Assembly: GCA_001687465.1 (NCBI GenBank)
Contig: LVLI01001173.1
Coordinates: 1-30,555, forward strand
Direction of reading: 5' to 3'
Origin: Halocafeteria seosinensis
Lineage: Eukaryota > Sar > Bigyra > Bicosoecida
Length of the DNA: 30,555 nucleotides
This document shows positions 1-28,839 of the stretch, in pieces. Numbering within the stretch: the stretch's first letter is position 1; each line of letters starts with the position of its first letter. Position numbers and translations under genes: made by a program. The notes under the pieces are model-generated. The model was not told the origin of the DNA, did no database searches, and was given only the letters and a program-made list of their open reading frames with translations.

Positions 1-556
1 GAGGAGCCATGCCTGCGCCCACAATGTCAGAGGTACCGACAAGGCTCAGTCTGGCAGGAGAAGACCCTGAGCCTGCCACAGCGGCGCCAACGCCAAGACC
101 GGTTGCAGCAGCGCAGGCAGGATGAAGTGTTGCTCCCGACGCAACAGTTGTGACCAATGACAAGCCTCCACCTGACGCAGGGGGCTCCCCTGAGATTCCG
201 TCCACCTCATTTTCGTCATCATAGCCCAGATTAAAGTACATCTCCTGCTCGAGATCGAAGAAGGTGCAGCTACCCAGGTCTTTCTGAAGCCACGAAGCCG
301 GTTCCCACGTCCGTGCTGCCTCTGGGTAGCCCTTCCAGTGGACGAGGATCCGCTTGTCGTGGAGCCTGACCGAGGGGTCAAAGGACCCCAAAAACCGGAC
401 CGGAACATTCGATCGCGGTCGGGTTTCTGCCCATGTCTGACTACAAAATGATCTTAGTTTCACATGATTGGGACCTGGTTTCAACGGAGTTTGCCCAAGC
501 GTAGCGTTCAGTCTTGTGGGTGAGGCAGTCACTGAGGCTCCACCCACACCATCCAT
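1..556 (-). CDS. Chromodomain-containing protein, partial (C-terminus beyond the left edge)
   Basis: The frame starting at the ATG at 556-554 stays open to base 1, giving about 185 codons. Near residues 58-90 it reads KRILVHWKGYPEAARTWEP, the central strands and aromatic cage region of a chromodomain; the family consensus is roughly LVKWKGY...TWEP. Such domains bind methylated lysines on histone tails, in nuclear chromatin proteins and also at the ends of chromovirus integrases. Here the region before the domain is short and lacks integrase core motifs, and what follows is acidic then Gly/Ala/Ser-rich, so a host nuclear protein is the simpler reading. An in-frame stop lies just upstream of the ATG, near 573. 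It is downstream of, and on the same strand as, the OLD-family gene (144-bp gap). A retroelement fragment cannot be excluded, because the rest lies outside the window. The chromodomain match is seen directly; histone binding is inferred. Confidence 0.62.
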   Translation of the reverse strand, partial: MDGVGGASVTASPTRLNATLGQTPLKPGPNHVKLRSFCSQTWAETRPRSNVPVRFLGSFDPSVRLHDKRILVHWKGYPEAARTWEPASWLQKDLGSCTFFDLEQEMYFNLGYDDENEVDGISGEPPASGGGLSLVTTVASGATLHPACAAATGLGVGAAVAGSGSSPARLSLVGTSDIVGAGMAP

Positions 557-9430: not shown

Positions 9431-12102
9431 ATGGACCAATCGACGTATGCGCGAGCGTCACCGACGCATTGTACGGAGAATGAGAGCTCCCCGAACGTGA
9501 CCTTTACTTCTTCAACAACGCCTTCGATCCCCGCCGGATATCCAGAGGCTTATACACGTCATACACAGGCCGATACGCCTCATGAAGGGGTGTCCGTACT
9601 TGTGCACAATGTCAGCCATTCCGACTTCTTCGTGTCTCTGGAGGCGTGCCAAGGGGAGGGAGGGGGAAGCTGTCGACGCGACCGGGGATCCGATAGGAAT
9701 GCTGCAAGAGCGCCAGAATCGAATATAAAGAGTTTAAGGAAGCGCAGACGTGTTGTTGACGAAATTTCAGGCTCATCGAACTCGCGGGAGTTTGTTCCAT
9801 CGAGCAAAGAACAAGCGACGCAAACGGACCAAGTGGGCGAAGAAATCAGCCGTGATGAACGACAAGTGCGTCAGGACGAAGAGATACAACCACAACCCTT
9901 TGCTCGACCAAAGTTTTCAGCATTTGATCCGGTATCGGCGGCTGTGTTACAGTTTCTCAAGGAGACTCACTGTCCAAATTACCCCATGGAAGTTATCATG
10001 CATCCGTCGGAAGTGGTCGGGATGAACTACCCAATTGGACTCTCACTCCGTAAGTATTCACTCTGGGCCGTTTACGTTCTACACACACGGCACTGTTCAT
10101 TTTGGAGCCTGAAATCGCAGCTGATAGGTTGGTGTTCCCGGCCTGGGATGATTTCAAGCTTCGTGATCCGAGAGTGTGTATTTCAGGTCCTAAGCCTGCT
10201 CTGACGGGAGCCATTTTCCCCCTGATTTCTATTATTCTCCCGAAATGGCATCACTTGTTAACTGAAGGAGGGATCTCGGGGAAAAAAGTGCTAATCCTAT
10301 TGAGTGGATCAGGTACTCCTCGAAATCGGGAACACCGTATGGCCGGCAACAGTACAATTAACACGTCGAGGCTAATGGAGGTTTTTGTCAAAATCCTCTA
10401 CCCAGACATCGAAGTTGTACAGCTCGCATCCCCCGACAGTATATTCCGATTTGACCAGAACGTTCGATTTATGCGAAGCCAACTTCAGCCTATAATTAAC
10501 GAGGAAAGAAGATTATTAGCACAGAAATTCGATGACACATGGAAGCAGCGATTTCACCTAACGTTAGCGTTGGCTGACGGAGCTCCAGCTCGGGTTGCTG
10601 CCTTGAACGCAGCGCTTCGACAATACCGCCCCAACTACCTTCACCTTTTCGAACTAAAGAATCTCTGGTTTAACGGTCTTGTTACAACCGCGGACATCGA
10701 CTTCTTTCCTTTCGAGACTGGTGAGTCGCTTGCTGTAGGTAACCTCAATGCCCTTCGTAGTATTCAACGTCTTCTTTCCCACATGAAATTCGCAGCCCAA
10801 GTGTCGCCGCCAGTGGATATGGAATCACTCTCAGGCCTACTAAGACAGCTTGCAACCGAAATGTTAGATCACTACCGAAAGTTTACGAGCATTCGCGACG
10901 GTCACTTGGGAGACGCAGGCCATGATCTTGCAACGTTCTGGTTGCGAAAAAGCAGGAAACCGGTACTCGCTGTTCTTGCGGTTCAAAAAGAAGGGGATGA
11001 GTGCCCCACATTTTACAGGTGAGCATTTATAGTGCTTTCTCAAATTGTATTGCAAAATAGGTTGGCAATAACATTCATTTGCAGAGGAATGAACATGGAA
11101 GTTTCAATGCCCACAGGCTCCCTGTGCGCAGAGAGAAACGCTATAGGAAGTGCATTAGTCAGTGACCCTTCATTGAAGCGGCGAGACATCAAAGCTGTTG
11201 CCGTACTATCCGTGACGCTGCTCCCAACACAATCTTGGAAGCCTATCAAGCAAGTAATGAATGAGCGGAAGTCCGCAACAGAACGGGAGCACAATTCCTC
11301 TGGAAATACGGAAAAACGCAAGACAACAGACAGTACAGCCATTACCCCTGAAGCAAAAGCTGCTTTCTATGTCATGGATAGAACTCATGGTAAGAATTAC
11401 AACCAAGATGAGAATTTTACATTGGAAGCAACTAGAGGGGAATCGTCCTCTGTTACTCCTCCACGAGCTGAGCCATACAATAAGGTTGCTTCAGAGAAAG
11501 TATTCAGAAGCCCTGCCTCCAAGAGAAATTTGCCGACCGAAACTCCCGCTTCGCTTGATCTTAGCAACGATGAGCGGGAGTCATCAAGTTCCAACGGTGA
11601 AGGACTAGAGGAAAGGCAATCAAGTGACCAAAGTATCTCTTCTACCCAATCAGTGTTGATGCGGCAGGAGAGCGTGCAGCAACACTCGACTGGAAACTCA
11701 TTAGCCGAGATAGTGACTTCGACCAAGCCCGATGGATCCCCTAGGAGTCAGAGTGACTTTATACCGTCTCCAATAAAACTAGATGGCGAGAATCGCTCTG
11801 GTTCTTTATCGGATATCTCGCAAGCTGCAGGGGTCGTGCGGCCGCTTCAGCGAGGTGAGCATGACTGTTTCTCGAGACGAAAGAAGATTACTCCCGTTTT
11901 CCCGAAAGTGACGGAGAAGCAGATTCGAGAGGAGGGTTTAGGGGAGGGAGTTGATGGTTCTGATATCGTTTTGAACCCAATTTCTCCCTGCGGAAGCTGT
12001 ATTGAATGGCTCAAGAAGGTTGACGAAGTAAACCCAGATTTGGCCGTTGTCACGTTCACTGATACCAGCTGCAAGAAGCTCTATATCCGTAACGTTGTCT
12101 AG
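9431..12102 (+). CDS. Cytidine-deaminase-domain protein with conserved N-terminal Rossmann-like region
   Basis: Exons 9431-10049, 10121-11018 and 11085-12102 (introns 71 and 66 nt) join in frame to 844 residues. Residues 1-165 are polar and probably disordered, with a basic KSLRKRRRVV patch that may be a nuclear signal. About 180-440 is a compact region with KVLILLSGSGTPR, GNSTINTSRLMEVF, FDQNVRFM and DGAPARVAALNAALRQYRP, which looks like an alpha/beta nucleotide-binding fold. From about 475 a CDA-type deaminase begins: YRGMNMEVSMPTGSLCAERN, with zinc ligand Cys520 and proton-shuttle Glu522. The second zinc motif, PCGSC (Cys808, Cys811), comes about 285 residues later, against about 30 in free cytidine deaminases; the gap is a Ser/Glu/Arg-rich insertion. 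Catalytic residues are intact, so zinc-dependent deamination of a nucleoside, nucleotide or nucleic acid is likely, but the substrate is unknown. I chose the first in-frame ATG. Confidence 0.82.
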
Positions 12103-17089: not shown

Positions 17090-18205
17090 TCAACTGGATG
17101 TCTGTTTTGTGAGTCGGTGTACATGCTGTATCAAATGAAGTTTACATGATAATGATATGTTTACGGCGTAGTTGTATAGTTCCTCATCTAACGAGTTTGA
17201 CTGCCGTAAGTAATCCAGTGCGTCCGCGTTCTGCTCCAAATAGCCATTGTTAGGATTTTCGTGACCGAAATCAATATCGTACCAACGGAAGATCGGCTCC
17301 AAGCATTCATGAACAAGTTTCTGGTCATGAAGTGGGACAATCACAGCGAAAGTTTCTCGGAGCTTACGCTTTGCACGATCCAAGTGATCCCTTGTTAGTG
17401 ACCCGGTAGGCAGATAAAAGACAGATGGGCCCAGTAGGAATCTAATGTAGTAGTTGTCAAAGAAAGCCTCCATGATTCCGTGCTGAAGATGCCCGATGGG
17501 AGGCTCCGCTCCTTGTAGCCACTTGACTGTATCTAATGCACTCATCCTATGTGCAGTAAGATGGCTTTGTATACGGTCTATTGGTGGCCGGATATTAGCA
17601 ATGTAATGAAAGTACCGGGGGCAGCTCTCAATTTCCAGAAAAGTTTCCGAAGCAACAAATGAATAGATCCTCAACCTATTATACCGCTCTTGACAAGACA
17701 ATCGGGCAAATTCTCCAGCTAATTGCGGCTCTAAGAGCTTCTGAACCATTTCCTCTTCCGAGTTACAAGTGGCTTCCACGTTAACCATTTCCCCATTCCG
17801 CTGTGCCGCCAGACAAACTCCAGTCCCTCCTACTTTGTGGAAGTGAATAAATCTCGGTAGTTTCCTCTCCCCACTCATCAAATACCTTCTTGTAAGCCCC
17901 CAGTCTTTATCGAATTTGGATTCCTCATCTACGTCTGGGATTTTCCGCGAGGAAGTAACTCGGGCTCTTCCTCTCTTTTCAATACCATCGTCATGTAAGG
18001 GTGATGACCAATTATACCCGGGACTGCCTGTGCTCTTATTGGGTGAATAATGACCTTGTATCGCTTTCAAATCGTGTCCTCCGGTGTAGGACATGGGGGA
18101 CCTTAGAATCACTCTTTCTGAATAAATAATGTAGTTTTGGACTAGCACGTAGGATATAATAACACTCATAGATATGGTAAACAGTCCCCAGCCTCCATTG
18201 GCCAT
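17090..18205 (-). CDS. Type II membrane carbohydrate sulfotransferase, copy 1
   Basis: An intronless frame of 371 residues from the ATG at 18205-18203; the frame continues upstream only without an ATG. A signal-anchor helix at about 8-28 suggests a type II Golgi protein with a lumenal catalytic domain after a polar stem. The PAPS-binding 5'-phosphosulfate loop is FIHFHKVGGTGVC (119-131), and the 3'-phosphate motif is IRPPIDRIQSHL (205-216). This is the arrangement of 2-O- and related polysaccharide sulfotransferases, which move sulfate from PAPS to sugar hydroxyls. It shares IRFLLGP, a TRDHL(D/E)(R/K)AKRKL block and FAV(I/V)VPL with the copy at 22918-23961, including the order and spacing of conserved blocks. 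Cysteines near the two motifs also match, so disulfides are likely conserved. Acceptor sugar is unknown. It converges on the PAS membrane protein gene (127-bp gap). Confidence 0.83.
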   Translation of the reverse strand: MANGGWGLFTISMSVIISYVLVQNYIIYSERVILRSPMSYTGGHDLKAIQGHYSPNKSTGSPGYNWSSPLHDDGIEKRGRARVTSSRKIPDVDEESKFDKDWGLTRRYLMSGERKLPRFIHFHKVGGTGVCLAAQRNGEMVNVEATCNSEEEMVQKLLEPQLAGEFARLSCQERYNRLRIYSFVASETFLEIESCPRYFHYIANIRPPIDRIQSHLTAHRMSALDTVKWLQGAEPPIGHLQHGIMEAFFDNYYIRFLLGPSVFYLPTGSLTRDHLDRAKRKLRETFAVIVPLHDQKLVHECLEPIFRWYDIDFGHENPNNGYLEQNADALDYLRQSNSLDEELYNYAVNISLSCKLHLIQHVHRLTKQTSS

Positions 18206-19419
18206 TTTATAGCCTTGGCTGCCAGGTCCATGGAGGAAGATTGCGAGCCCAAACAAGACTTTATGGAGGCTTATAGCATATTATTTACATTATATCACCC
18301 AGAAGGAAATGAATTAGAAGAATCTACAGACAAGAATCTATGGAATCATCCACCTTATGCCGCTGTCGCATCAAGACAACCTTGCGTAAAGGTCTCCCAA
18401 ACAGGACGACCCGATTGAAGTTCCCTCCTGGAATTTCCCTGCAAGTCTTGAGCCCATGGGCCACGGTAGGTCCTCGGGGGAAGTTTGGCTATGCAGTATA
18501 GATATCAAGCACCTATGAGCTATGAAGGAGGAGTTGCTGACGCATGCAACTTACAATCATTTATGGTAATTTGTAGCCAGTTGTACGGCACTCAATGCCG
18601 TTTCCACTTCGCTGAATTCGGGAAAGTAAGAAAATAACGAGCTTGAATGCATCATTGAGTTCGGATTAAGTCAATCCACCTGTGATATAGCCGTCAGCTC
18701 AAGGTATTATAACCGTATCAATTTGCAAAGTGCGTGTGTGTGTTTGTGTGTTTGTTTGCAGAAGATTGACCCTTCTTGTTTGGTGTGCACTGCACACCGA
18801 CTACATCACCACCGATGTGCCACAACGTGGCTATTAACCAATACAGTGATGCATGTAGTTGGTACAGTAGCTTTGTCTGTCTTCACGGTGCATGGATGTA
18901 GTCGTGGTCTATTTGAATACTGTACACGTACACCGACAGTCAGCCGGTAGGCGTATATACACTCGCAGGAGAACTTCTTTTTCCCTTTCTGAATTTTAGA
19001 GAACTTTCTATGAAATCCTATGTTATTGGCGAAGAAATTCAAACAGGGACTTGTGTGGGGTGCTACCACACAACAGAAAGCGAGTCCCCTAGGTACGCCG
19101 GCTACCGTTGGAGACTTACTGACTCCTCCAGGTAGGTGCTGGCTCAGCCTGGCTGACTTCTTGTGCTCTCACGGTGTGTATTAGCTAATGTATTGCTCCT
19201 ACCGGAAGAAGTCTAGTCTACACGCATGTTAGTCAGACCGTGTTCGGAGTGAATCATACCAGTACTGGAGCTATTTGGTCAAATGCTCTACTGCCGGTGA
19301 CTGCCAAACTCTCACTTGTAGGAGAACAACAAAAAGTTTGTCAAAAAAAAGTTGTGTAATTGGTTTGCCATCACACATTTACTCATTAGAGAAGCGCTTA
19401 CGTACATTACAAGCCAGAT
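18206..19419. other. 1.2-kb divergent intergenic region between sulfotransferase copy 1 and PP2C gene
   Basis: The genes on either side are transcribed away from each other, so both promoters should lie here. A GT-rich tract spans about 18730-18757. Frames are short and unrecognised. No RNA gene is visible. Confidence 0.4.
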
Positions 19420-21504
19420 ATGCTTGGAGGACGTACTAGACAGCTCTGGTGGAAACATTTAGTATATGCATGGTGGCGACACACAGGTCAAAGCACCAAA
19501 GTTTTGCAGAATAAAGTATCGAAAACTAAGTCGTCTATTTTCAAGGCCGGAGAGAGTTTGACAAACGGAATGACTCTCAAAAATTTCCATCCAAAGGTCA
19601 AAGGTACACATAAAAGGTCCGGATGGTTAGATGTTCTACAGCTAGAAGGATGCAGCGGTCGGAAGGGAATGGAAGATCGATCGTTTGTGGTATATTTCGA
19701 AAACTCAGGGGAAGATACGAAGACAAAAAAGGATGGGGATTGTGGTTTGCCCATCGCAGCATTTGGGGTAGCCGATGGACATTACGGGGATTCGGTAGCA
19801 CAGAGGATTGTAGACATACTTCCCTCAAAACTTCAAAAATATCAATGTAATCTACATGATGCTTCGGTTCTAAAACGAATACTTCTTGAGCTGGAGTTGC
19901 AAGTGATCTTCTCTCCATGGAAGCGGCACTTGGAGTGCTACCATGAGAAACTGAAAGAATTGTCCAATGGTTCAAAAAACCTGAGAGAGCGTGATGAATA
20001 CAAGCTCATAGACTCTCGAAATTGCGTGGAAGGTGACGACGGATATGATGGCTCAACTTTGGAGCTACTTGTCGTCTATCCCGACAAAGCAATCCAAATT
20101 CATGTTGGTGACAGTCAAACAAAGCATATTTCGAGCGCAAACCCTCATGAAGTAACGATATTAGACACTGCTTCGTCGGAGGAAGACTTGGTACAGAAAC
20201 AAATGTCGAACCCGATTTCGGAGAGACGCTATCAGGGCTCTATCATAGAACGGCAATGGACCAAAGATCATACGAGAATGGAAGGAAATGAGGCTACACA
20301 TATAAACAGTATCTTCGAAACTGAGGATAATTATGTCTACACAAGGATCCAAGACCACTACTCTATCGCTGGGTACTATGGCATGACACCTTCAAGGAAT
20401 ATCGGGGATCTCCCCATTAAAATTACGAAGGAAACATTCCTTGAATTCAATTCCTTGGCCGATTTTAAATGGGAGGATATGAATGAAGACCTTTTTAGTA
20501 CCGACCCCAAGGTCCAAAATGAGTATTTGAAACTACGTCGACCTTCTCGTTTTGAACCTGAGATTGTTATTCATCCTTTCAACCCAGGAGATGTATTTAT
20601 CGTCCACACAGATGGCTTTGATGAGAAAAAATCAATGGAGCTATTGTTCGAAACACTTGAGGGGAAAACGACCGAGTTAAAATTTAAACGAAATCCTACA
20701 ATGCTGCAAAATGCGATGTGGTATTTGAACGATAGAGGCAAAGATAATCAATCAGTAATATGCATTCAGCACAAAACAAATCCGGATTCTTGCACAACAG
20801 AGGGTCCCCGTGTCTCCCCTGCTACCACGAATCAAGAGAGCACTCTATCCTCGGAAGATACCGTCTCCCAAGTGCACAATGATGACAGTGTATGGAATCT
20901 CATACCTGACTATGAGGGTGTATTAGTGAAATTGTTTCGGGAATCTATTGGAGCCATCCAAGACTTCCTTCTTCATGATCAATATTTGATTTTTGCATGG
21001 AGAGAAGACAGTGGAAATGATTGGACTTGCTGGATCCCAAAACGGTTCGGACGGTCACCGTTTGGGATCGTCCAGCTTGCGGGATATATCCTGGACAGGG
21101 CTGTACGCTCACCCGATTTGTTTTCCGTTTTTCACTGTCCAAGGAATCATGAGTTCCTAACAGAAGCAAAGATGATTTGCACTGAAGAGGAATTCAATAT
21201 CGTGGAAGCTTCTGCGTTGAGTATAAATGACGACGTTAAGAATGTGGTGTCTGAAGCCGCTTTCGCCATGTCCCAGAGCAGGTCTCTGGGAACCGGCAGC
21301 CGTTCACCGAAAGACTATGAGAATGGTATACAGGAAATCTTTCGTATATATTGGTCGCACTTGGATCGTTGCGCCAGATTTCCTACTTGGGGTATGGGAT
21401 CTCATAAGGAGAGATGCCAGCCTTCGAAGGTAACCCCAGACTGCCCGGATTGCCTACTTGATACAGTTAAGGCACATCTGCCGCCTGATTTACGTCGCGA
21501 GTAG
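19420..21504 (+). CDS. PP2C-type (PPM family) protein phosphatase with C-terminal extension
   Basis: An intronless frame of 694 residues. PP2C motifs appear in order: GRKGMEDRSFV (Glu85, Asp86), FGVADGHYGDSVAQ (Asp119), GYDGSTLELLVV, IQIHVGDSQTKHI, WTKDHTRMEGNE, GMTPSRNIGD, GDVFIVHTDGFDE and DNQSVICIQ. The four acidic residues that hold the two catalytic metals are all present, so Ser/Thr phosphatase activity is likely. Several motifs are drifted (GDSQ for GDSR, HTDG for SDG, GSTL for GSTA), which suggests a divergent member. Domain length is about 390 residues against the usual 250-290, mainly through insertions between strands. The last 200 residues form a separate, unrecognised region with WREDSGNDWTCWIPKRFG and a Cys-rich end (CPDC). 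The basic N-terminus (1-40) might be a targeting peptide. Substrate and pathway are unknown. Confidence 0.82.
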   Translation: MLGGRTRQLWWKHLVYAWWRHTGQSTKVLQNKVSKTKSSIFKAGESLTNGMTLKNFHPKVKGTHKRSGWLDVLQLEGCSGRKGMEDRSFVVYFENSGEDTKTKKDGDCGLPIAAFGVADGHYGDSVAQRIVDILPSKLQKYQCNLHDASVLKRILLELELQVIFSPWKRHLECYHEKLKELSNGSKNLRERDEYKLIDSRNCVEGDDGYDGSTLELLVVYPDKAIQIHVGDSQTKHISSANPHEVTILDTASSEEDLVQKQMSNPISERRYQGSIIERQWTKDHTRMEGNEATHINSIFETEDNYVYTRIQDHYSIAGYYGMTPSRNIGDLPIKITKETFLEFNSLADFKWEDMNEDLFSTDPKVQNEYLKLRRPSRFEPEIVIHPFNPGDVFIVHTDGFDEKKSMELLFETLEGKTTELKFKRNPTMLQNAMWYLNDRGKDNQSVICIQHKTNPDSCTTEGPRVSPATTNQESTLSSEDTVSQVHNDDSVWNLIPDYEGVLVKLFRESIGAIQDFLLHDQYLIFAWREDSGNDWTCWIPKRFGRSPFGIVQLAGYILDRAVRSPDLFSVFHCPRNHEFLTEAKMICTEEEFNIVEASALSINDDVKNVVSEAAFAMSQSRSLGTGSRSPKDYENGIQEIFRIYWSHLDRCARFPTWGMGSHKERCQPSKVTPDCPDCLLDTVKAHLPPDLRRE

Positions 21505-22917: not shown

Positions 22918-23961
22918 TTACTGACTAGTCTCATTGCGGAAATAGCGATTTACATGATTTACCAGATGTGTCCTACAGGAAGCAGCGATTTCTAACGCGT
23001 ACTTGTATAACTCCACATCTAGAGCATTCAACTCATCTAGATATTGCAGTGACTTTGCGTCCTGTCCAAGTCGAGATTTTCCCTGGTTATTGTGACCGAG
23101 ATTGACGTTTTTCCAGCGAAGGACAGTCTGGAGGCATTCTTCTACGGATTCTTGATGATATAAAGGGACTACTACGGCGAACGTATCTTCCAGTTTTCGC
23201 TTTGCTTTCTCCAAATGGTCTCGAGTAATAGAAAATGGAGGAAGAAAAAATGTATCAGGTCCTAAAAGAAAGCGAATATAGTAGTTATCGTAGAAAGCCA
23301 CTTTTCGACCAAATTTGTGGCGTACCGACGGCGTCTTCCCTCCGTGTAACCAGTCCACCGTTTCATTGGCCTTCATTTGATGACTATTCAAGTGACTGCG
23401 TATCCTGTCTAGCGGAGGCCGAATTATTGTTACATAATGAAACATCCTGGGGCAGGTTTCCTCTTCTAAGAATGTCTCTAGGGCGATGAATGAAAACTGA
23501 TGTAGTCGTTCCCAACGCAACTCGCAATTGCGTTTCGCAAACTCGACGGCCACCTTAGATTGACCAATCAAAGCCTGGGCGTTGTCTTTAGGAGAATTAC
23601 ATGTCCCTCCTTTCCCTACTTTTTCTTTGGTTTTCATGGCAGTCTTGCAAAATGTTGTTCCTCCGACTTTGTGTAAGTGTGGGAATCGAATCGGTCTTCG
23701 CTCTCCACTCAGCAGAAACTGGCGCGTCTGCTCCCAGCGATGACGAAGGGATTCTGGCAGATGGCTTACCTTCTCTGCCTTCTCAGAGATAATCGATTCT
23801 TCGAGACGTCGCGTCAAATCCCCAGAACCAGCCTCGGCGTGGTGGTTGTCACCATCTACTGGGTATTCGGCCGTGAGAGCTCCAAGCATCTGGAAGATGA
23901 CGAATGCCGAGACTATCCATCCTCCGATGATCGCCAGTCCTTTTCTCCCAAGACTTTTCAT
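22918..23961 (-). CDS. Type II membrane carbohydrate sulfotransferase, copy 2
   Basis: An intronless frame of 347 residues from the ATG at 23961-23959. A basic tip and signal anchor (about 8-28), then an acidic stem, then the catalytic domain. The 5'-phosphosulfate loop is FPHLHKVGGTTFC (93-105), and the 3'-phosphate motif IIRPPLDRIRSHL has a conserved Ser. It is a paralogue of 17090-18205: the shared blocks LSGERR/K, HKVGGT, DNYYIRFLLGP and LDE(L/E)...LY(K/N)YA(L/V) are collinear. Most sequence change is in the stem, as expected when only the lumenal enzyme is under strong selection. Both copies run in the same direction with the PP2C gene between them on the other strand, so this is a dispersed local duplication. 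Role: PAPS-dependent sulfation of a Golgi glycan, probably cell-wall or matrix polysaccharide; the acceptor is not known. Confidence 0.83.
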   Translation of the reverse strand: MKSLGRKGLAIIGGWIVSAFVIFQMLGALTAEYPVDGDNHHAEAGSGDLTRRLEESIISEKAEKVSHLPESLRHRWEQTRQFLLSGERRPIRFPHLHKVGGTTFCKTAMKTKEKVGKGGTCNSPKDNAQALIGQSKVAVEFAKRNCELRWERLHQFSFIALETFLEEETCPRMFHYVTIIRPPLDRIRSHLNSHQMKANETVDWLHGGKTPSVRHKFGRKVAFYDNYYIRFLLGPDTFFLPPFSITRDHLEKAKRKLEDTFAVVVPLYHQESVEECLQTVLRWKNVNLGHNNQGKSRLGQDAKSLQYLDELNALDVELYKYALEIAASCRTHLVNHVNRYFRNETSQ

Positions 23962-24574
23962 CTCCAACGAGCAGCTCGGAGAGTGGGTGCAAATAAAATG
24001 CCTTGTGCTCACGTTTTACAGGGGATTTAAGCAAATAGAGTGCCAAGGAAGAACCCCAACGGTAACGGAGTCACCAGTTCTTTGTTGCTGCCTTCAGTCC
24101 CTACGATTGCATGCAGTGTAGACTGCAAAACCTCCTCTGTATGTGGGGCTACCTTTGGACTGAACAGACTCTCTGTCGCTGTGTGTGCGTAGGTGAGTGG
24201 GATCGATCCCGGAAAAACCACGCTGCGACCCAAAAACTACACTGTACGTGTTTGTAGGTTTCTATTGACTATTACCCCTACAATAATACCGATACCATAC
24301 ACCGTGGATAAATGAACAAACCTGTTGGGAATGTGACATTGGTTTCTCGTTCTTACAGAGTACACGGTACAATAACGACCAAGCATACCATACCGTATGG
24401 TGATACATTTGTCCAAAACTTGTTGCGACCGCCCTAAGGTCGCTTCGCTTCAACGAAACTTTCGCAAGCATCCTCTATTGTACCACCATTGTGTTGCAAT
24501 TAGAGCATGCAAGTTGAACGATTCTTGATGCTCTATGCCCACAAGTCCTTCTCTTGTATGCACAGTACTCACAG
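23962..24574. other. Upstream region of sulfotransferase copy 2
   Basis: No gene is supported here. It should hold the promoter of copy 2 and the 3' end of the GLUG-repeat gene's neighbourhood; both genes lie on the minus strand. A minus-strand frame at 24262-24471 has no recognisable content. Confidence 0.4.
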
Positions 24575-25063
24575 CTACTCCGCGTTCTCAAGCTCTCTCC
24601 GTCTAAACTTGTTTCCGACAACTTGTACTTCTACGCTGCCCTCAAATCGCAGACCTTGATCCGTTGTACCGCTTATTAGTAACGTGACTGTTTGATGATA
24701 GACTGATATGCCAGTAGGTCCGAGCCAACGTAGTATAACGTCTGTTCTCGCGTCTCCATTTACATCTCTCATCTTCATTTCCGTGGCTGTCCCTTGTGTA
24801 ATGTTTGCAACTAGAAAGGGAGAGGTACCAACGAGAAGAGTTCCGATGTTGATAGAGACTGCATTGAATTCACTATCACTCAATACGGCCACATCTATTC
24901 CGCGTTTTGCACATGGGAGCACGGCCGCCTTCCCACTTCGTTTATTGTTGATCATGATGGCTGGAGTAGCAATCGGCAGTGCGCTCGGGGAAGCGGAAGC
25001 GGTTGACGTGGAAGTACCAGTCACCGATGCCGTCAGAGATGGAGTGACAGTGGAAGAAGGAGT

Positions 25064-25423
25064 CCCAGTGGAAGAAGGGGTCCCAGTGTTTGATGCAGTT
25101 TCAGAAGGAGTGAAGGATGCCGTTGTGCTTGCAGAGGGAGTATTGGTCTTGGACGGACTAACCGATGAAGTAGAGGATGCCGTTCCGGTTGCAGAGGGGC
25201 TATTCGTCTTGGATGGGGTTACTGAGGAAGTGACGGAGGCGCTTCTACTTGCAGAGGGGCTATTCGACTTTGACGGACTAACTGATGAAGTTTGCGAAGT
25301 TGTTTCGCTTGGAGAAGGAGTATTGGTCGTAGATGAGGTCACTGATGAAGTAACCGACACAGTTCCACTTGCTGAGGGGGAGGTAGTTCTCGATGGACTC
25401 ATCGATGACGTGAAGGATGCAGT
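25064..25423 (-). repeat. Six imperfect 60-bp tandem repeats coding a Ser/Thr/Pro stalk
   Basis: Within the GLUG-repeat gene, about six copies of a 20-residue unit of the type TASxTSSVSPSKTNSPSASG follow one another. The 60-bp period is plain in the DNA. Such stalks are typically O-glycosylated spacers that lift a domain off the cell surface. The copies differ at many sites, so the array is not freshly expanded. Confidence 0.85.
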
Positions 25424-26007
25424 CCCACTTGCAGTAGGAGTGCTACTGCTTGATGGAGTACGTGACCCTGTTACACTCGCCGATGCAGTTACTTTTGGCG
25501 AAGGACTCGTCGATGGACTAGCTGCAGGTGATGCCACAACGCTGACTAAATCACTGTTGACACATTCTCCCTGGTTATGTACTAGTGTTGGAAGTGTGCC
25601 ATTTTCCACTTCCCACCGTTTTTCATCCCATTTGGTTTCTCCATTGACAGTGTACAATACCCCCTCGATGCTATTAATTGCGTTAGAGTTATTTACCAAC
25701 TGCAGTGAGCTGCCACTACCTACGCTTCCGACCTCATTGCCTGAAGGAATGACAGAATTCTCAACCACGGCCAAAACTCCATTTGCATCGATAAAGTTAG
25801 ATATACCAAAAGCATCCAACCCCGTTATGGCACCGGACGCATACACGCTGTCAACTAACAAAGTCACTGCACCATACCCGAAGCTAAAGCCTGCAATGCC
25901 ACCACTCTTTTCTCCTGCAACATCACCTCTGCTGTAGGAATCGGACAGATGGAGTACACCTGTTGTCTCTAGTGCAAAGCGGCCAAGAATGCCTCCAGCC
26001 TCTTTGC

Positions 26008-26389
26008 ACCTCTACAGGAGAAATCAGCGGAGAAGGCAGCGGTGGAATTGCAGGATCCTTGAACCAGTTCTTGGTCGTCCTGTGCAGCTCGTCCAGTGGG
26101 AACATCTCAGCAGACTTCGCTGGCGGCATTTGCGGAGCAAACACAGGTGAGGAAGGCATCACACGGATTGATGATTGCCATTCTTCAGGGAATATCATTG
26201 GAAATGGTGCTGGTGGCATCCTCGGTGGCAATGCTGCTCACACAGCGGACTCGATTAATGTGTCCAATAGTTCTTCAACTGGGGCAATATATGGCCTAGG
26301 CGCTGGCGGGATAGTGGGAGAAGCCTTTGGATGGGGCTATGTTGAAGGTTTCATTTTGAGCTGTTTCAGCACCGGCGTCATTAACGGTA
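26008..26389 (+). other. Inverted internal segment of the GLUG-repeat gene
   Basis: The coding strand switches at both ends of this 382-bp block. Inside it the plus strand carries GLUG repeats in a frame beginning TSTGEISGEGSGGIAG and ending CFSTGVING; outside it the minus strand does. Plus-strand codons upstream of 26008 and minus-strand codons inside the block are antisense nonsense. Both edges carry the self-complementary dinucleotide GC (26006-26007 and 26390-26391), with weak wider similarity (GGT-GC and GGTAGC), so the breakpoints can slide by 2 bp. There are no long inverted repeats of the kind used by known invertases. Confidence 0.75.
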
Positions 26390-26827
26390 GCCATTAATGA
26401 TGCAATTCGCCTGGTTGCTCTGAAGTATAAATCCAGCTCCATCTGCAAGGCTTCCACCTCTTACATGGACGTTGATAATTTTTGGTGCTGTGCTCATAGA
26501 TTGAGCACTCGAGTTAAACATTCCCTCGAACCCACTCACACCGTCCATAACAACGCTCAAATCGTTGTTGCCGACGAAGGTTTCGTTGTCTTGAAGTGAA
26601 ATGAAATCTGTGGAGTCGAAAAAATCAGTCCACGTTAGATTACAAACTAGGTTGAAGGTAGATGTGTCAGGATTCCATTCGATACAAGGGATTCCACCAG
26701 ATGTAACAAATTCTCTTCTATCTGCAGCCATAGCGAAGGACGCAATTCCCAGCACTATCAATGATAGAACTACGTTTAGAGCGGCTATTTTCTGGTTTTC
26801 AATGCGGCAACGCAGCTGATGTGACTA

Positions 26828-28839
26828 CTATGTACTGTAATGTACAGTATACTATATTCCCGCAGCTGATCAGTTCAAGCTTCGGCAACTAAGAAGAAAC
26901 GTATGTTGGTAATTCAATATTCGCATACAAACCTGATTCCCGATACATAAGTCTGCTTTGGCGTTGGGGTAGACACAAGCTATGAGGAGCGTCAACAACG
27001 CAGCTGCAGTGGTCGATGTGACACGTTCAGCAAGTTTGACTGAATGAGCAGTCAACAGCAAGTGCCGTGCAAACAGGTGTTACTACATCGAAATTCCTAT
27101 ACAAATCTTACCCCCGATACATGTATGTATTGGGCTCCCAATTTTGTAGAACAACAGCAGCCTATGCGGAATCAGTGAATAATTACTGGGGACCACGGGT
27201 CATTGAGCGGTTGAAGCGGACCATTGGGACACGGCGGATTTTTACAGCCTCTGTTCTGCCCTTCTTGACTATATTGGAACCCTTGTTTCTAGGTTACCTC
27301 ATTCTCCACATATGCTTGCTTGTTAAGTTGCCAAACTCCTCTGGTGGCCACGCACTGCTAATTCCGCAATTCGGTCAGGCCTAACAATCCTCAATCCTGC
27401 ATCCCAGGATCTGGCGATGGATGGACTTACAGTAAATCGGCATGCATGTATTATACAGTATCGGCCTCACTTAGCAGAGAATTTTTTCTGGGAGTAAACA
27501 TAGCGCTTCAAGTCTCTTGGGATTTCCGGATTCTATATGACTAACGCAGCAGAAGTCTGCCTGGGAGCTTGGGCATGGGTAAGAAGCCTGATCTAGCCTC
27601 TCACCCACTGCCTGCTTACTGCACCGTGGATTCCCGGTTTGATGGAGCTGCCTACTGACATATGCGCTGGATTTATTAATGGTTGAGTTTTCGCTCGTTT
27701 ATGACCTCATACAAGTCAGATAAAAAAATTGACCGGGTATAATACACCGTCTTCCGTCCGTCTCGTTGACGACGCCTGCGAAATTACGCAGCCAGAGTTG
27801 TCTCCATGCGAATGCTAGGGAGAATGAGGGAACCTGCAATCATGATAGTGTTCGTTTGGTTTTCTCAACCTAAGGCGGAGTTTCTTTACTCTTTCGTAGG
27901 GTATATCGGTTGATGCTGCTCCCGCACCACCTGTCATACCAGCCATCGTTCATCATGATCAGTGAGTCTGACTGAGTCAAGTGCAAGTGAAATCAGTGTG
28001 AAATGTACACTCTGTACGCGGGAGTGATAAAGGCGATAGAAATATGAGGCCGGCTCTTTGATGGCCATTCCGTGCGAATGGGGATTTTGGATTCTGCGTT
28101 TCAGAGACGTGTGTAATGTATTCATGCGTACATTGCTCTTCCAAGAAGAAAACTAGCCTACATGGTACGGAGTTGTCATTCCCAAAGTCGGTCCAGCATC
28201 CTCATGGGTGGCGCATAATTTTGTAGAGAACACAGATGCCGAATTGTTCCTTGACTTCTTTGCCCCCAAGTAGTTCTTACGTACGTGCGCCTGAATTGAA
28301 GCAGTCTGGAGGTAGATTCAGTAGAGGTTTCCAGTGTGCATTGTTCATGCTACAATAACAATAGGTGCTGTAGCTTTGCTACTTGCGGAACAAATGTCCA
28401 CTCCTGCTGCCGCAGATAGCCGTGGAGTCACAATGTGGTCTACGATATTTTGATTCCTGTACTACCGCTAGTCTAGTCAGATGCTCCAATCCTCCACTTA
28501 ACGAGATAGTCTTAGTTTTAGCACCCTGTAAATCTCAAAACATGGCTATAAAAGTGTATCGTATGATACATATCCCTGGACATCTCCACAAATCCAACTT
28601 GAACTTTTTCCCGCTTCTGAAGAAAGTTGACCACGTTGAGCCAGAGAAAGTTAATGCTATTGCTTTGGAAGAAGCAACCTTTATGCTTGTTTTCCATCAA
28701 TGGCAAGCACTAGTATATGAACAAAGCCCTTGCTCCCCGCTCCTGATACCACCGCCAATCTTAGAGTGCTACATAAAGAAGTGCGCCGTGCAGTGCTAGC
28801 ACCTTCAGTAAAGGCTTAAGCGAACGTATCACATCTAAA
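26828..28839. other. 2-kb region without a firmly supported gene; possible leader-exon remnants
   Basis: A dyad ACTGTA-ATG-TACAGT (26834-26848) lies just before the GLUG-gene leader. On the minus strand, 26936-27039 encodes a signal-peptide-like stretch (TTAAALLTLLIACVYPNAKA, then DLCIG). A typical 72-nt intron (27111-27040, donor GTAAGA, acceptor CAG) could join it to an upstream frame ending TCIG. These may be 5' exons or a decayed duplicate of the surface-protein leader, but no ATG or complete chain was found. Frames at 27067-27384 and 28383-28799 (plus) have no recognised domain. The part before 28840 should hold the ankyrin gene's promoter. Confidence 0.35.

Follow-up and report, generated by a model that had tools for sequence, protein, structure and literature searches.

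Programmed invertible DNA is familiar from bacteria, where invertases drive phase variation. Microinversions have been surveyed in animals. In the accessible part of a Drosophila survey, 77.6% of 143 microinversions were under 1 kb, 0 of 143 overlapped an exon of the host gene and 7 of 143 did so with an exon belonging to a nested or overlapping gene (PMC1779558). The excerpt of a human-chimpanzee comparison used here gives 1 of 59 microinversions in an exon, outside the coding segment, and 0 of 59 overlapping a coding segment; every definite microinversion in it was flanked by inverted repeats of 3-75 nt, the inversions themselves being 17-33 nt long (PMC8755829). A pure inversion that falls in coding sequence destroys the gene and would thus be expected to be lost.

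The window analyzed here was the entire contig LVLI01001173.1 of Halocafeteria seosinensis (label C504; 30,555 nt), from an assembly of 30.6 Mb in 605 contigs. A minus-strand gene at 26,824-24,575 carried an inverted block. With a probability of about 0.82, two breaks recently allowed these 385 bp to be inverted in a single member of a large GLUG family, which probably left a null allele. The segment was reversed in place with its flanks in normal order, as in a microinversion, and the commonest spacing in the family, which is indirect evidence taken from paralogues, pointed to no net gain or loss of bases when the block was 385 bp. Flanking inverted repeats of the human-chimpanzee kind were absent, the edges sharing 1 nt; such repeats do not define all microinversions.

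Layout of the gene and order of its pieces in relatives

The N-terminal part (N-part; 26390-26824, minus strand) was a stop-to-stop open frame from 26824 with a signal-like stretch at about 26770-26726 and an N-cap domain, and it ended in ...QANCIING. The C-terminal part (C-part; 24575-26004, minus strand) began with KEAGGILG. It held the remaining GLUG units, a linker, a Ser/Thr/Pro-rich stalk (24977-25540, minus strand; 60-nt tandem period, copies within 25049-25408) and a C-terminal domain (24578-24976, minus strand) common to paralogues on contigs C303, C268 and C565, followed by a stop at 24577-24575. Between the two parts, the block (26005-26389, with a 1-nt ambiguity) encoded four GLUG units and the beginning of a fifth on the plus strand. 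When the three pieces were cut at 26390-26770, 26008-26388 and 24578-26005, no stop was present over 730 codons. The initial annotation had given 729 codons in one frame; the pieces are indeed free of stops, but that count runs from stop to stop and the N-part exon has no ATG ahead of its signal-like stretch.

Only one of the six frames of the block was open, namely the plus-strand GLUG frame, which extended over 169 codons from stop to stop. An open frame of this length could be taken for a separate plus-strand gene lying inside an unrelated, split minus-strand gene. However, no ATG was found in it, 68 of 5,000 shuffled blocks were open in the same frame, and the frame was homologous to the missing part of the paralogues. 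Two overlapping genes are barely conceivable, and this explanation was rejected because it conflicts with what the paralogues show.

Relatives elsewhere in the genome carried the three pieces on one strand and in the same order. Among the matches listed, strand agreed in 231 of 233 neighboring pairs within 1.5 kb, and the two exceptions were this gene's own junctions. The count covered all 150 N-part matches listed in the genome (the gene itself included), all 92 C-part matches and 150 listed of 223 block matches; one gene may hold several matches, and the Ser/Thr-rich stalk may account for some of the C-part matches. In the genome search, 150 of 329 N-part, 89 of 1009 C-part and 150 of 733 block candidates were scored. 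When the pieces were searched separately, N-part and block matches were found together in 50 of 68 paralogue frames of at least 250 aa, and all three pieces in 49; L001, L006 and L036, which are the gene itself, were excluded, and some of the 68 frames are overlapping cuts of one gene. No other flipped family member was observed among the matches listed. The reversal of the block relative to its family is real, and unique among those matches.

An inversion within a GLUG-repeat gene had been proposed in the initial annotation, which also considered a chance origin of the frames unlikely. Both claims were borne out by the one-strand order in relatives and by the strand agreement, and chance open frames were rejected because relatives carry the pieces collinear on one strand. 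The annotation had further suggested aligning the three pieces to homologues, and held that homologues without the plus-strand repeats would count against an inversion; within this genome the opposite was found, as the paralogue frames show.

Besides the gene itself, a whole-genome DNA search returned one paralogue, located on C303 (L004), and no second arrangement of the locus in the assembly. The C303 paralogue had a 376-codon frame in which a block homologue (from block residue 46) was followed by a C-part homologue on the same strand. It lacked the N-part and the stalk, making it an incomplete reference. A short repeated sequence (TPRG...LPLGV) occupied L004 1703-2006, where the N-part is missing, and the paralogue appears truncated. 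No close intact orthologue showing the ancestral joins was found; the best block-bearing relative was about 70% identical and was itself without an N-part.

A neighboring intron-split gene encoded an NAA15-like NatA subunit that matched a transcript-derived EukProt protein at 100% identity across 89% of the query, indicating that the contig is eukaryotic. Elsewhere on it, two similar minus-strand genes with a common HKVGGT motif (17090-18256 and 22918-24012) flanked a 694-aa frame at 19420-21504; neither had a Pfam match at E 0.001, and by eye they look sulfotransferase-like. A CDD/CDA-like deaminase at 11032-12099 on the plus strand (PF14421, E 1.5e-42) carried a long insertion within its domain. 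Fragments at 2-556 (minus strand), L007 3024-3395 and L008 353-679, presumably of a chromodomain retroelement judging by eye, sat at the contig start and close to the paralogues on C268 and C565.

A divergent GLUG family

The block resembled the GLUG proteins of PF07581 in its repeat pattern (E 9.2e-4), but it scored 19.9 bits, just short of the curated 20.5-bit cut-off. This threshold was exceeded at one place on contig C93, and the transcript-derived paralogues P0126, P0127 and P0132 had no Pfam match even at E 1. The repeat pattern C-x-S-[ST]-G-x-[IV]-...-[AS]-G-G-[IV] was counted in 199 paralogue units, and four units of the block plus one of the C-part fit the tandem GLUG pattern. The family is a large, divergent eukaryotic expansion of GLUG-type proteins. 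Its listed matches were spread over 113 contigs, most of them on C117, C30, C515 and C324, and its open frames reached 5,735 aa (C580). The predicted model of the paralogue on C78 resembled parallel beta-helix proteins, and family members are probably secreted or surface beta-helix proteins. On C268 (L007) and C565 (L008), the C-terminal domain was joined to a different N-terminal domain.

Edges of the block and origin of the flip

When the block was cut at 26008, exactly one residue lay between N-part and block in 36 of 50 paralogue frames, and zero residues lay between block and C-part in 25 of 49. A 382-bp block predicts gaps of 0 and 1 at these joins, which were observed in 0/50 and 0/49 frames; a 385-bp block, with its left edge 3 nt outward at 26005, predicts 1 and 0, the commonest values. 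At the first join, 14 of 50 frames were off the expected spacing (12 shifted by 25-26 residues, 2 otherwise), and at the second join 24 of 49 (19 shifted by roughly one or more repeat units, 5 otherwise). If a frame held several stretches, the one nearest to a zero gap was taken; these differ by about one repeat unit, so this step makes no choice between 0 and 1. The residue before TSTG was C in the 385-bp reading, as in 121 of 199 paralogue units (S in 71 of 199), and G in the 382-bp reading, as in 1 of 199. The spacing at the second join was 4 residues in the 385-bp reading (175 of 199 units) and 5 in the 382-bp reading (1 of 199), the values at both joins being read by eye. Judged by paralogue spacing and these repeat-unit statistics, the block is 26005-26389 (385 bp), or 26006-26388 (383 bp), with one base pair shared at the edges.

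The block had originally been placed at 26008-26389 (382 bp). Its right edge stands, and its left edge was 3 nt off by the family spacing. The accompanying claim that no base was added or lost agrees with the spacing at both joins, provided that the block is 385 bp and not 382 bp. The palindromic GC described at the break arose from the left edge being placed 3 nt too far in, the corrected edges sharing 1 nt, and it was rejected as break-site microhomology because it depends on an edge that is contradicted by paralogue spacing.

With the edges set at 26008/26389, no inverted repeat was detected, and 1604 of 1786 random pairs had at least the same local similarity. At the corrected edges, between 1501 and 2869 of 5000 random pairs reached the ungapped similarity observed within 5, 10, 20 and 40 nt. 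The longest exact inverted word common to the 400-nt outer flanks was 9 nt, located about 50 nt from either edge. Recombination between flanking repeats was rejected as the origin, since inverted repeats did not exceed chance. The weak similarity of the edges mentioned in the initial annotation was no greater than that between random places. Its preference for breakage that is not site-specific is supported by this lack of similarity, but no longer by the GC. We propose that two breaks would have released the 385-bp segment (26005-26389), which would then have been reversed and, most likely by end-joining, sealed in again with its length unchanged. Both joins keep the family spacing, so no bases appear to have been gained or lost. 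The lack of an inverted repeat on either side of the block makes replication template switching a less likely origin.

The flipped state is known from one assembly, and the absence of stops in the pieces is what an intact gene would show; both points agree with an assembly or library artefact, in which the true gene runs in a single orientation and 385 bp were turned round by the assembler or by chimeric reads. However, there was no inverted repeat at the edges to mislead an assembler, and a chimeric read yields one false join, whereas two are present here, both consistent with the family spacing. We consider such an artefact unlikely.

When compared with C303, the block had a nucleotide identity of 70.0%, a dN of 0.254 and a dS of 1.00 (81 codons); the respective values for the adjoining C-part were 72.3%, 0.258 and 0.71 (141 codons). 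Nucleotide identity and dN were similar in the two, and dS was higher in the block. Because block and flank have diverged from C303 to a similar extent, the block is probably native to this gene. The C-terminal domain was 82.8% identical to C303 (L004) in DNA, against 70-72% in the repeats, and gene conversion between paralogues at this domain is possible. In a family as large and repetitive as this one, such a hint of patchy exchange would also suit replacement of the original repeats from another paralogue, by an inverted insertion or a gene-conversion patch. Against this stand the similar divergence of block and flank, the lack of a near-identical donor in the whole-genome DNA search and among the matches listed in the block search, and the matching spacing with which the block fills its gap at both ends. 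Insertion from another paralogue was rejected on these grounds, a patch of either kind being very unlikely.

The initial annotation had also raised a reversible DNA switch on a surface protein. In this reading, inversion would turn the protein on and off, and the assembled sequence would be the off state. A probable surface protein from a large family would be suited to antigenic or phase variation, and its frames were kept open. Two recombinase families were searched for in the genome, ignoring introns: resolvase (PF00239) gave 0 matches, with controls positive in 10 of 14 genomes, and phage integrase (PF00589) gave 0 matches, with controls positive in 14 of 14. No evidence in support of a switch emerged, as there were no flanking inverted repeats beyond chance, a single arrangement in the assembly and no other flipped member among the matches listed; nor was a transcript-derived protein with the C-part found among proteins 0.55 to 1.75 times its length. 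Programmed inversion was rejected for want of sites, of a resolvase or phage-integrase match and of recurrence in the listed family, and a reversible switch is highly improbable. Equally little credence is given to the flip being one state of a repeat-independent reversible inversion that varies a surface beta-helix protein, with both orientations in the population; if true, this would be a very unusual eukaryotic DNA switch.

Consequence, age and comparison with known inversions

Beyond 26390, the N-part frame ran for two codons inside the flipped block and then reached a stop (26383-26381), the third codon after the first join. Roughly four beta-helix turns would be encoded on the opposite strand, in a frame lacking an ATG, and the stalk and C-terminal domain would be severed from the signal-like stretch. 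From these predicted effects, the allele is probably null, and it is probably tolerated thanks to the relatives present on 112 other contigs (among the matches listed). The pieces are without any stop, indicating that the event is probably young. Neutral decay was limited to about 1-5% divergence (5% level; 0 to 0.15 assumed indels per substitution; 730 stop-free codons), and the sequence suggests a recent event. A recent null allele was the best supported of the three options named at the outset (null allele, switch or assembly error).

An ATG ahead of the signal-like stretch was absent from the N-part exon, whereas it was present in 22 of 22 comparable paralogue frames (left out were those with the 5' end cut, with the N-domain more than 140 aa in, or repeats). 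A 5' exon beyond the N-part exon may supply the start codon. In the paralogue on C268, the signal sequence is interrupted by an intron, so a 5' exon is possible for the inverted gene too. Were there no such exon, the missing ATG would be a second lesion, and the gene may have been dead before the flip; since a dead gene and a 5' exon are both possible, the inversion may not have come first. A candidate 5' exon holds an ATG at 26948 with a donor-like GT after it, and this ATG sits in a 52-nt direct repeat (26897-26948 / 27071-27122).

The paralogue on C78 was recovered at full length in the transcript-derived proteome, apparently of the same species, with a rounded identity of 100% over the query and one residue differing by eye. 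A full-length protein was also present in this set for the paralogue on C268. As no protein with the C-part of the inverted gene was found there among those 0.55 to 1.75 times its length, this speaks mildly for a silent gene.

Like bacterial invertase-driven phase variation, the locus shows a flipped segment of a probable surface-protein gene; unlike it, the segment has no inverted-repeat sites beyond chance, is accompanied by no PF00239 or PF00589 match and is unique among the matches listed. It is a short pure inversion, as are the Drosophila microinversions, but differs from those in the accessible part of that survey in lying in coding sequence (PMC1779558). It differs from the human-chimpanzee microinversions, as far as the excerpt of that study extends, in its position in coding sequence and in being without flanking inverted repeats (PMC8755829). 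Protein-family spacing fixes the edges to within 1 nt and the event appears young, so the locus can be used as an example of an inversion that lacks flanking inverted repeats, and of how a gene dies in a surface-protein family that is expanded and redundant. Microinversions are already well known, and the H. seosinensis case is probably a clean, recent example of one in coding sequence without flanking repeats.
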